Shown here one piece after another: positions 3,783 through 35,233 of a DNA stretch of 35,438 nucleotides. The position numbers and the translations under genes are program-made. The DNA is from Chloroflexota bacterium (GTDB lineage: Bacteria; Chloroflexota; UBA6077; SHYK01): contig JACQOR010000035.1 in assembly GCA_016202435.1 (NCBI GenBank), forward strand, positions 1 to 35,438, in the 5' to 3' direction. The notes under the pieces were generated by a model that did not search any database, was not told the origin of the DNA, and saw only the letters and a list, made by a program, of their open reading frames with translations. Within the stretch, counting starts at the first letter, position 1, and every line of letters starts with the position of its first letter.

Positions 3783-5819
3783 TTAGAAGTCTGCCAGGTC
3801 TGTCGGCGGTTCAGCCGTCGGCGCCGTCACCGAGACCGCGGCCAGTTCTTGAACGTGCCCGGTCCCCTCGTAGAGCGAGAAGTAGTACGTATCTCCGGGG
3901 GTAAGCCCCGGCACATCCCTGGTTCCGACGGGTCCCTGCGCGTAAAGCTCCTCCGGTCCCTGACCTTCGGAAACGTAAAGCTGTCCCGTCAGTCCGGTGC
4001 CCGTATCCCAGGTGATCGACAGGACGGTTGGGTCGTCGGCGTCCAGCGCTGGCGCCACCCGCGCGGTCAAACTGGCCCGAGTGGAGTCCGACGCGGGCAC
4101 TCGGATCGGGCTCTGTGGGTGGCCGACTACCCTAAGGGTCTGGAGACGAGTCAACCCCTGGTACAGCCGAAACTCGTAGGCCCAGCCTGGTCGGAGCCAG
4201 GAAATGCTGGCAAACCCGTTGGAGCCCTGGCTGAAAGGCACTTCAGAACCACCAGGTTGCCATACGAAGACCTGGCCCACACCGCCATTTCCGGTGCTCC
4301 AGCTGACCAGCGACCCGCCGGCCCCATCAGGTGCAGCGGCAATCCAGGGAGGATCAAACAGCATGGCATACGTGCTGCCGTCCGAAGGCGAGCCCGGCGC
4401 CGGAATACCCTCGCCACCGGTATTCCAAGGCGGCAGCGCAGGCGCGGGGGTTGGGATCGCAGTCTGCCTCGAATGGCTCCCAGTTACCGTGAGCGTCCGC
4501 AACCGTTTGGCCTTCGTCATCCCCTGGTACAGTCGAAACTCGTAGGTCCAGCCTGGGGTGATCCAGGACGCCTCCGCCGAACCCTTGGCACCCTGGCCGA
4601 AAGGCACCTCGCCGCCCCCCTGTTGCCACACAAAGACCTGGCCGAACGATCCGTCGCCGGTATTCCAGCTGATGTTGGTAATCCCTCGCCCGCTCCCGGC
4701 GGGGACGGGGTTCGGACTCGCGGCCAGCGTCGCGCTGCCACTCGCCGCCGGGGGCGGCGGCGCCAAAATGATCGGAGCGCCCGATTCAGAAGCCGGCGCG
4801 CTTCGGGGAGTAACCAGCGGGGTTGTCCGGGCCGGCGGCGAAGCCGCATCGAGCCAGAGGAACGTCACCCTGATCCAATCGTTCGAGGTCATTTGGAGAT
4901 CATCCCAGAAAGTGCCGTCGGCAAGGTCAATAGAGGTCGGAATGGTCACGTACCGTCCAAACTCGTCTCGGCCGCCGTTGTAGTCGCGAAAAAAGGCGGC
5001 CTCTGCCGCCGGAGTCCATCGGGGGAGATCGCCAAAGGACTCGCGCCTCTCGTTCCAGTAGTCGTCCCGGATGTTCCACGGCCCAACGTCCCAAACTGGC
5101 GCCTCGACGGTCCTGCCCCGATATTCGAGCCGAACTACGTAGTCACTCCGGTCCAGGGCGTTGAGCGCCCGGCGCGACGGCAGCGCCACGAAGCGGTCAC
5201 GTTCCACTATGACGTGACCGTTAGCTGTGGTCCCCCCTACCAACCCCTCGCGGGTCGCCCACAGGGTCGCTGTAGGTGGACCGAATTGGGCTGCGAGATT
5301 CTCCGCATGGAACCTCGCCTCCATGGGCCGGACCCATCCGTACACGCCTCGCACTCTCGGAGACTGGCCACTCGGGCTGGAGAGGAGGGTAACCCGTGCC
5401 TGCAGCGATGACGCTCCGGCGAGCGCATCGAGCGCATCCGTCAGCTCCCAGAGGCCCCAATGCCCTTCAAACCACCCTCGGGCCTCGAGCAGGACATCAG
5501 TGCCTCGAGGCAGCTCCGCGTCAAGGATCAGGTCATCGACAACCGATGGCCAATCAAACTGTACCGCTAGCGACTGGGCCGTCCCAAACTTGGAATGCGG
5601 ATCGTAGGCGGGCGAGTAACGGGCGTCGGCACCCAACACCAGATCGCCTTCGCGCAGATCGAGACCGGTTCCCGAGCCCTCGAACAGCTGCGACCCCGAG
5701 ATCCAAAAGCTCATGCCAGCTCCGAAGCTCTCAGCTCGAAGCGGGGCGGGGTGAGAAAGAAGCGGGAAGAGGACGCTCGCCAAGAGCGCTGCCCGTCCCC
5801 ACAGGGGACCCATAAGCAT
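3783..5819 (-). CDS. Secreted modular protein: barrel-like domain plus three beta repeats
   Basis: A 678-residue protein with a cleavable-looking signal peptide (about residues 1-29, ending APLRA-ES). An N-terminal beta-rich region (about 35-165) is followed by a segment resembling a double-psi beta-barrel/RlpA-type domain (about 186-312: GGTTANGHVIV, PVWDVGPWN, IDLADGTFWDDL). A Pro/Ala-rich linker follows, then three copies of a roughly 90-residue module. The module signature is W-x-TG-x-G-x-x-GQ-V/L, then an acidic residue, F/YxQG, and YEFRLYQG or YYFSLYEG near the end. The repeats look like immunoglobulin/FN3-type beta sandwiches. Export and cell-surface or glycan binding is an inference. 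The DPBB-like part has an insertion between its halves, so catalysis cannot be assumed. A second ATG lies two codons downstream. It is the first gene of a pair with fabZ. Confidence 0.75.
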   Translation of the reverse strand: MLMGPLWGRAALLASVLFPLLSHPAPLRAESFGAGMSFWISGSQLFEGSGTGLDLREGDLVLGADARYSPAYDPHSKFGTAQSLAVQFDWPSVVDDLILDAELPRGTDVLLEARGWFEGHWGLWELTDALDALAGASSLQARVTLLSSPSGQSPRVRGVYGWVRPMEARFHAENLAAQFGPPTATLWATREGLVGGTTANGHVIVERDRFVALPSRRALNALDRSDYVVRLEYRGRTVEAPVWDVGPWNIRDDYWNERRESFGDLPRWTPAAEAAFFRDYNGGRDEFGRYVTIPTSIDLADGTFWDDLQMTSNDWIRVTFLWLDAASPPARTTPLVTPRSAPASESGAPIILAPPPPAASGSATLAASPNPVPAGSGRGITNISWNTGDGSFGQVFVWQQGGGEVPFGQGAKGSAEASWITPGWTYEFRLYQGMTKAKRLRTLTVTGSHSRQTAIPTPAPALPPWNTGGEGIPAPGSPSDGSTYAMLFDPPWIAAAPDGAGGSLVSWSTGNGGVGQVFVWQPGGSEVPFSQGSNGFASISWLRPGWAYEFRLYQGLTRLQTLRVVGHPQSPIRVPASDSTRASLTARVAPALDADDPTVLSITWDTGTGLTGQLYVSEGQGPEELYAQGPVGTRDVPGLTPGDTYYFSLYEGTGHVQELAAVSVTAPTAEPPTDLADF

Positions 5820-33015: not shown

Positions 33016-33089
33016 GGGCAAGTAGCTCAGCTGGTTAGAGCGCCACGTTGACATCGTGGAGGCCAGGGGTTCGAGTCCCTTCTTGCCCA
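33016..33089 (+). tRNA. tRNA-Val (GAC)
   Basis: A complete 74-nt cloverleaf. The acceptor stem is GGGCAAG/CTTGCCC, the D stem GCTC/GAGC with loop AGCTGGTTA, the anticodon stem CCACG/CGTGG with loop TTGACAT, and the T stem AGGGG/CCCTT with loop TTCGAGT. Anticodon GAC reads GUC/GUU. The discriminator is A; the genome follows with CCC, so CCA is not encoded. It is followed 18 nt later by the thrS T-box leader. Confidence 0.97.
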
Positions 33090-33218
33090 CCCAATAGGTA
33101 ACGGCTGCGACAAGGAAAGTAGTCGAGTATCGAGCTGCCAGAGAGGTGGCGTCACCGCTGCGAGCGCCGCCAGCCGCGACTCGGCGAAAACCACCTTCGA
33201 GCTGACCCGCGAACGAAT

Positions 33219-33295
33219 CTTGTCGTTCTGAGGTCGCGACCGAAGAATCCGCAACCCCGCGAGGGACGGATCCTTCATACGCTCAGGATGGCAAG
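33219..33295 (+). repeat. 77-nt palindromic repeat inside the T-box leader
   Basis: The arms CTTGTCGTTCTGAG (33219-33232) and CTCAGGATGGCAAG (33282-33295) pair over all 14 positions, with three G-U pairs in RNA. Inner arms GAAGAATCC and GGATCCTTC pair with one mismatch, and CCC-CGCGA-GGG closes the tip. This sequence resembles a family of dispersed bacterial palindromic repeats with ends such as TTCTGAG ... CTCAGGATG. Only one clear copy is in this window. Confidence 0.75.
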
Positions 33296-33390
33296 GAGCA
33301 AGTAGCGGCGCCCCAATGGCCTCGGTTAAAGGGCTCAAACGAGGAGTTCCGACCTGAGGGTCGGGGAACCTGGGTGGAAGCGCGAGCTGA

Positions 33391-33426
33391 CCTCTCGTCC
33401 CAGGACGAGGGGTCTTCTTGTTTGAT
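33391..33426 (+). terminator. Intrinsic terminator of the thrS T-box
   Basis: CCTCTCGTC (33391-33399) and GACGAGGGG (33404-33412) form a 9-bp stem with loop CCAG, followed by TCTTCTTGTTTG. Its 5' arm also forms part of the T-box antiterminator, so the two are alternatives. Confidence 0.8.
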
Positions 33427-33445: not shown

Positions 33446-35233
33446 ATGGCTGAACACCAGTCGGATCTCGACACGATGCGCCACAGCGCGGCCCACGTGA
33501 TGGCAGCGGCCGTCCTCCGGCTCTTCCCAGGCACGAAGCTCGGCGTTGGCCCGGCTATCGAGAACCGCTTCTACTACGACATGGAGATCCCGGGGGGGAT
33601 CACCCCTGACGATCTCCCAAGGATCGAAGAGGAGATGCGGCGGATCGTCGCGGAGAACCACCCGTTCGAACGTGACGAGATCTCGATCGACGACGCCATC
33701 GAACGATTCCGTCAAATGGACCAGGACTACAAGGTCGAGCTGCTTAGAGATCTTAAGGAGCGGGGCACGACACGAGTGGGCAGCTTCGAGGACGTGGACG
33801 TCGACCCGAGCAACTCCACGACGGCGAGCCTGTACAAGACGGGCGAGTTCCTGGACCTCTGTCGCGGCCCACACGTCGCGAGCAGCACTGACATCGGAGC
33901 CTTCAAGCTGTTGGACATTTCGGGCGCGTATTGGAGGGGCGATCAGAAACGCCCCCAGTTGCAGCGAATTTACGGAACGACCTGGCCGAGCCAAGCAGAC
34001 CTCGACCAGTACCTCTGGCGACTCGAAGAAGCGGGGAAGCGAGATCACCGCCGATTGGGCCGAGAACTCGATCTGTTCAGTGTTTCGGAGGACGTCGGAC
34101 CCGGACTGGTGCTTTGGCATCCCAAAGGAGCCATGGTTCGCCTGATAGTCGAGGAGTTCAGCCGGGCGGCCCACCTGCGGAATGGCTACGAATGGGTCTT
34201 CTCCCCCCACATCGGAAGGGCGCATCTCTGGGAGACTTCAGGCCATCTCGATTTCTACAAGGAAAGCATGTACGCACCCATGGACATCGATGGCGAGGAC
34301 TATTACGTCAAACCGATGAACTGCCCATTCCACATCCAGATCTTTCGGAGCCACCTCCGTTCATACCGCGACCTTCCAAAACGGTACGCGGAGTTTGGAA
34401 CCGTCTATCGTTATGAACTGAGCGGCGTCTTGCACGGGCTTACGCGTGTCCGCGGATTTACTCAGGACGACGCGCACATCTTCTGCCGACCGGACCAAGC
34501 GAGCGAGGAAATCAATCAGGCCCTGGACTTCTCCCTGTTCGTGTTGAGGTCGTTCGGTCTCACGGACTTCCACGCGTACCTAGCTACCCGGCCGACGGAA
34601 AAGTCCGTGGGCGAGGACGAAGACTGGGCGCGGGCGATTGATGCGCTTCGCCGCGCGGTCGAGGCTCACCAAATTCCCTACGATGTGGACGAGGGTGGCG
34701 GGGCCTTTTATGGCCCGAAGATCGATCTCAAAGTCTCCGATGCATTGGGCCGAGAGTGGCAGCTCAGCACCATCCAGTTCGATTTCAATCTCCCGGCTCG
34801 CTTTGGCCTGGAGTTTATCGGCGAAGACGGTCGAGCGCATCAGCCCTACATGGTTCACCGCGCACTTCTCGGAAGCATGGAGCGCTTCCTTGGCGTACTC
34901 ATTGAGCACTACGCAGGAGCCTTCCCTTTCTGGATGTCGCCCGTCCAAGCGGTCGTTCTCCCGATCGCGGATCGACACGCCGAATTCGCGGGAAGAGTCG
35001 TCCAACGGCTTACGGACACCGGTTTTCGGGTTCACCTCGATGCCCGCCGCGAGAACCTCAATCACAAGATCCGGGATGCCCAACTCCAGAAGATCCCATA
35101 CATGCTCGTCGTAGGGGACCGGGAGGCCGAAAGCGGGAGTGTCGCCGTCCGGACCCGCGCCGGTGAGAACCTCGGGGCAATCGCGATGACAGACCTGCTC
35201 ACGCGCTTCCGAGACGAACTTCCGGAAGGCTGA
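33446..35233 (+). CDS. thrS: Threonyl-tRNA synthetase lacking the TGS domain
   Basis: A 595-residue ThrS from ATG 33446. It begins directly at the editing domain (MRHSAAHVMAAAV with HxxxH; LCRGPHV with CxxxH), so the usual N-terminal TGS domain of about 60 residues is absent. The class II catalytic core has motif 2 (YRYELSGVLHGLTRVRGFTQDDAHIF), zinc ligands in KPMNCPFHIQ and the later His residues, and motif 3 MVHRALLGSMERFLG. A C-terminal anticodon-binding domain follows (about 495-595, QAVVLPIADRHAEFAGRVVQ). It charges tRNA-Thr and is controlled by the T-box upstream. GGGAG about 11 nt before ATG supports this start over GTG 33374, which would lie inside the T-box. Confidence 0.97.
   Translation: MAEHQSDLDTMRHSAAHVMAAAVLRLFPGTKLGVGPAIENRFYYDMEIPGGITPDDLPRIEEEMRRIVAENHPFERDEISIDDAIERFRQMDQDYKVELLRDLKERGTTRVGSFEDVDVDPSNSTTASLYKTGEFLDLCRGPHVASSTDIGAFKLLDISGAYWRGDQKRPQLQRIYGTTWPSQADLDQYLWRLEEAGKRDHRRLGRELDLFSVSEDVGPGLVLWHPKGAMVRLIVEEFSRAAHLRNGYEWVFSPHIGRAHLWETSGHLDFYKESMYAPMDIDGEDYYVKPMNCPFHIQIFRSHLRSYRDLPKRYAEFGTVYRYELSGVLHGLTRVRGFTQDDAHIFCRPDQASEEINQALDFSLFVLRSFGLTDFHAYLATRPTEKSVGEDEDWARAIDALRRAVEAHQIPYDVDEGGGAFYGPKIDLKVSDALGREWQLSTIQFDFNLPARFGLEFIGEDGRAHQPYMVHRALLGSMERFLGVLIEHYAGAFPFWMSPVQAVVLPIADRHAEFAGRVVQRLTDTGFRVHLDARRENLNHKIRDAQLQKIPYMLVVGDREAESGSVAVRTRAGENLGAIAMTDLLTRFRDELPEG

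Follow-up and report, generated by a model that had tools for sequence, protein, structure and literature searches.

A dispersed palindromic repeat in the predicted Stem II terminal loop of a Chloroflexota thrS T-box leader

The available text of one review of T-boxes describes curious insertions, of unknown structure and function, in every T-box domain, and a Stem II that is remarkably diverse (PMC7583486). The same text places an S-turn midway along Stem II, where it steadies the specifier-anticodon duplex, together with a K-turn that positions Stem II and a pseudoknot that stacks coaxially with it (PMC7583486). In Streptococcus pneumoniae, a BOX element separates two trp T-boxes (PMC3049150). 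Our literature search, with most subscription papers outside its scope, found no account of a dispersed repeat inside a T-box. The leader described here lies in a window of 35,438 nucleotides (the whole stretch of DNA that was analysed) from the genome of a Chloroflexota bacterium; this genome is a 1.76-Mb draft, 77%-complete and in 105 contigs, and the repeat site is read from the assembly.

All of the features discussed are on the forward strand of the window. The thrS gene, encoding threonine--tRNA ligase, occupies positions 33446-35233 (TIGR00418, 698.7 bits against a cut-off of 383.65), and is preceded at 33098-33405 by a T-box leader of the transcription-attenuation type (RF00230, 69.7 bits, E 3.8e-15). 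The RF00230 match covers 1-219 and scores below the 93-bit gathering score, as do the T-boxes of several relatives. Stem I was located at 33103-33203 from the Rfam alignment and from helix covariation in orthologues; its base is GGCT (33103-33106) paired with AGCT (33200-33203), followed by a K-turn strand at about 33107-33111. Above this, the helix AAGG (33112-33115) with CCTT (33194-33197) covaries in orthologues, where its counterparts are GAGG/CCTC, CAGG/CCTG and CCGG/CCGG; in the underlying table of NNGG/CCNN helices the rows for the window, which has a one-nucleotide deletion, and for L154 and L032 are misread. The specifier ACC (33190-33192) encodes Thr, in agreement with the downstream thrS. 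The Stem IIA/B pseudoknot region was placed at 33309-33333, with approximate limits, from the AGTA spacing and the Rfam alignment, and includes GGTTA at 33324-33328. The antiterminator (CCTGGG ... CCCAGG) extends over 33369-33404 with a T-box bulge of UGGAAGC at 33375-33381, and an intrinsic terminator hairpin, recognized from sequence and fold, spans 33389-33414 and is followed by TTCTTGTTT. Outside the switch, 8 nt 5' of the leader, is a tRNA-Val (GAC) gene (33016-33089; Rfam 71.8 bits, ARAGORN). A tRNA-Val also precedes thrS in four other genomes (G001, G003, G004 and G013), and the order tRNA-Val, T-box, thrS is maintained in several relatives (also in L133, L137 and L138).

The initial annotation had marked positions 33219-33295 as a palindromic repeat built into the T-box, and this is borne out by folding. 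The segment is a palindrome with arms of 14 bp, including G-U pairs, at 33219-33232 and 33282-33295 (the right arm assigned from the fold and pairing probabilities). When 33216-33300 is folded, the hairpin has a minimum free energy of -35.5 kcal/mol (z = -3.31), and 0 of 200 shuffled sequences were equally stable. The 71-nt repeat core (GTC...GGC, 33222-33292) is flanked by CTT, which with the core makes up the left arm, and by AAG; the two flanks lengthen the repeat stem. The consensus of the core in relatives, read by eye from the copies, is GTCATYCTGAGCGnAGCGAAGGATC...GGATCCTTCGCTnCGCTCAGGATGAC.

Sequence-related copies at multiple unrelated loci identify the repeat as a member of a dispersed family. 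The motif GTCRTTCTGAG occurs nine times in the 1.76-Mb draft genome, although not every one of these sites is a full copy, against no occurrences of the reversed control. A BLASTN search of the same genome, the check that had been suggested for copies elsewhere, returned two further copies, on contigs C82 and C30, that match at 79% over 52-56 nt, and E-values of the window repeat against other copies are 1e-5 to 3e-5. Five copies could be aligned over their length and were used to build a covariance model, R1, which they match by construction. At E <= 0.1, R1 gives up to 13 matches in the source genome and, in relatives, up to 86 (G004), 79 (G001), 56 (G002) and 49 (G008); as one palindrome can be matched on both strands, these counts are upper bounds on the number of sites. 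The window copy, which itself helped to build the model, scores 87.1 bits. A GTCATTCTGAG core was also seen near thrS at position 4596 of a Nitrospira sp. record (L017) and position 1774 of a Candidatus Omnitrophica record (L051); repeats of this type may thus not be confined to one phylum. A literature search for the repeat sequence found no description of it; the titles returned were unrelated.

Folding and spacing place the repeat beyond the S-turn, in the loop that caps Stem II, with the switch core untouched. Stem II (33207-33308) is closed by CCGC (33207-33210) and GCGG (33305-33308), the sides of the S-turn are GAA(CGA) at 33211-33216 and AGTA at 33301-33304, and the terminal loop (33214-33300) is 87 nt long. 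With 33203-33312 folded alone and the insert present, Stem II has pairing probabilities of 0.98-1.0 and the repeat arms mostly of 0.84-1.0; the unconstrained fold also gives the CCGC/GCGG stem. The Rfam alignment misplaces Stem II in the window because of the insert, and in L148 and L162 it places inserts in the Stem II loop. Loop lengths were surveyed with an anchor-based finder. Since this missegments some leaders (in several long cases it took a GAA from the specifier region, or upstream sequence), the statistics were restricted to 73 unique leaders with an AGTA-GTTA spacing of 19-27 nt, a few of which are still doubtful. Among these the spacing itself is 21-25 nt (23 nt in the window), and the Stem II loop ranges from 2 to 112 nt with a median of 18; the loop in the window is the second longest because it holds the dispersed repeat. 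The spacing of Stem III also varies widely among the anchored T-boxes.

Comparison with orthologous thrS leaders, likewise proposed at the outset, indicates that the window repeat is an insertion. The class sample comprises 29 genomes, 26 of them with thrS, and 19 thrS leaders with a T-box motif, the window included. A scan with R1 found the window-type repeat in none of the other 18 T-box-bearing thrS leaders of the class, and it is on their lack of the repeat that its reading as an insertion rests; no second T-box with a family member was found among those scanned, a set without L264-L296. The Stem II loop of the G004 thrS leader is 16 nt (CGCGCAGCAGAGCGCC, between GAA and AGTA); the window loop less its 71-nt core is 16 nt, and the resulting fold keeps the same Stem II. 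The suggestion that a dispersed repeat had landed in the leader thus agrees with both the copies elsewhere in the genome and the leaders that lack it.

Dispersed palindromes of other kinds were found in the Stem II loops of two further T-boxes. A thrS T-box in G022, found in the survey of orthologues, carries GTAGGGGCAGGCCCCCGTGCCTGCCCCTA in a loop that matches 57 places in its own genome, itself included (E <= 0.01), and an ilvB-like T-box in G300 carries GTCGTCCTGAGCTTGTCGAAGGACGA, with 24 matching places in its own genome, itself included. The repeats of the window, G022 and G300 are mutually unrelated in sequence. The G300 case emerged when 400 genomes of the phylum were searched by pattern for a repeat core lying 90-150 nt ahead of a T-box motif; of the four matches, two (L160 and L161) turned out not to be T-boxes. 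A concentration of dispersed repeats at the tip of Stem II is suggestive rather than measured, as this distance range favours the region from Stem II to Stem III. Separately, the second T-box of the source genome (L099, about 1600-1710; G000:C90) has a Stem II loop of about 81 nt of unrelated sequence, Stem II insertions of 50-84 nt and of differing sequence occur in L133, L100 (G003), L109, L111 (G004) and L015, and a long Stem II loop is present in G002.

The initial annotation had also held that the left arm of the repeat closes Stem I, by pairing of CTTGTCG (33219-33225) with CGACAAG (33108-33114), and that the repeat hairpin and Stem I are mutually exclusive. The two 7-nt segments are exactly complementary; however, 33108-33114 comprises the K-turn strand and the first three nucleotides of the AAGG helix, and the base of Stem I is GGCT/AGCT. 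Shuffled repeats yield a 7-nt complement to Stem I 39% of the time, which puts the observed match at chance level. Forcing the pairing gives -131.7 kcal/mol, against -138.0 for canonical Stem I with the repeat hairpin, a cost of 6.3 kcal/mol in a comparison that leaves the K-turn, pseudoknot and tRNA uncredited. The free minimum of -141.2 is neither the canonical nor the forced fold, and folding the whole leader gives the canonical helices at the base of Stem I no more than moderate probability; for a pseudoknotted RNA of 336 nt, nearest-neighbour folding serves only as a guide. In the complete leader the probability of the CGACAAG/CTTGTCG pairing is near 0. The pairing is absent from relatives, an outcome that the initial annotation had itself named as refuting its proposal, and most relatives' copies of the repeat have GTCA rather than GTCG at the pairing site. 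We therefore do not retain the shared arm; with the insertion located in the loop that caps Stem II, the repeat hairpin can coexist with Stem I.

Of the proposed role for the repeat as a modulator of the switch, all that survives is a transient pairing that would precede synthesis of the right arm; stable pairing is not upheld. Nascent leaders ending at 33226-33232 favour CGACAAG/CTTGTCG at equilibrium, with probabilities of about 0.95-0.98 and then about 0.8, in a calculation that ignores the tertiary energy of the K-turn and the tRNA. This dominance, with the exact complement, would fit a left arm that alternates between its own hairpin and CGACAAG and so modulates tRNA sensing, perhaps solely as an intermediate during transcription. 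We regard such alternation as quite improbable: the pairing has fallen to a probability of 0.007 by 33250 and to 0 once the whole repeat or leader is transcribed, the energy cost and the frequency of chance matches given above count against it, and the 33108-33114 strand differs in orthologues. Highly improbable is a combination in which Stem II tips are a recurrent landing site for repeats and the left arm here also holds the K-turn strand transiently. If that combination were true, synthesis of the right arm would free the K-turn strand, and the repeat would time both the folding of Stem I and the capture of tRNA. A leader that had always possessed a long Stem II merely resembling the repeat, with no insertion, is very improbable. 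Long structured loops of other sequence in G003, G004 and the second T-box of the source genome are consistent with such an ancestral Stem II, but the strong family membership of the window repeat (the BLAST E-values, and the R1 score of a copy that contributed to the model) and the failure to find related sequence in orthologues argue against it.

A further explanation is that the T-box is decaying, with the repeat insertion and a substitution in the bulge both marking relaxed selection. In the fetched sample, UGGNACC was present at 207 of 213 matched sites, UGGTAGC at two and UGGAAGC at one; the bulge in the window keeps UGGN, with ACC replaced by AGC. In addition, GGAAAGTA is shorter by one nucleotide than the usual GGACGAGTA. 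The bulge and this shortened element suggest that the switch in the window may be impaired or weakened. In G001, from the same family, tRNA-Val is directly followed by an antiterminator/terminator remnant (CCTGGGTGGATTGCGAATG...CTCGTCCCAGGGCGAGAGG TTTTTT; L135 1313-1445) and then by thrS; the T-box has apparently lost its sensing portion through deletion. This remnant, the UGGAAGC bulge and the several members of the class without a T-box motif are in keeping with decay. Against it, the window retains the specifier, the AG bulge region and the S-turn, a constant AGTA-GTTA spacing, the antiterminator helices and the terminator, and the two other repeat-bearing T-boxes, in G022 and G300, have intact UGGNACC; decay is an unlikely, though not negligible, account of the leader.

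We consider it likely that the repeat was inserted into the Stem II terminal loop of a leader that is still a tRNA-Thr attenuator, with an enlarged and mostly passive Stem II. On this reading, a dispersed palindromic repeat would have moved as DNA into the site of the Stem II loop, and in the RNA it would form a long hairpin beyond the S-turn. The reviewed layout of Stem II implies that material past the S-turn should project away from the tRNA contacts and be tolerated, and the repeat hairpin is accordingly modelled as pointing away from the tRNA-reading parts. Stem I and its K-turn, the ACC specifier, the S-turn, Stem IIA/B and the antiterminator/terminator would retain their normal layout, from which it follows that the leader most likely still works by sensing tRNA-Thr. 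The insert is probably a tolerated extension of Stem II that is neutral with respect to regulation.

Three leaders from three genomes, with three unrelated repeats at the tip of Stem II, would give T-box insertions a concrete source, and dispersed repeats may be one origin of the lineage-specific insertions. They also point to a simple rule, applicable to any well-studied T-box, that hairpins extending Stem II past the S-turn are tolerated.

These observations can be set beside several known systems. The window shares with the Stem II-containing transcriptional class of RF00230 the specifier ACC, K-turn strand, S-turn, IIA/B spacing, antiterminator, terminator and downstream thrS, and differs from it in the 87-nt Stem II terminal loop and the UGGAAGC bulge. 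The repeat resembles short intergenic palindromes of the REP/MITE kind in its length of ~70-80 bp, its near-perfect palindrome and its many degenerate copies per genome; the GTCATYCTGAG type, however, matched no named family in our literature search. While the available text of the review names no origin for lineage-specific T-box insertions (PMC7583486), three are here traced to dispersed palindromes. A further likeness is to the BOX element of S. pneumoniae, a dispersed repeat that is co-transcribed with T-boxes which appear still functional (PMC3049150); however, BOX is a separate fold between two T-boxes, whereas the repeat in the window forms part of a single T-box, whose Stem II carries it at the tip.
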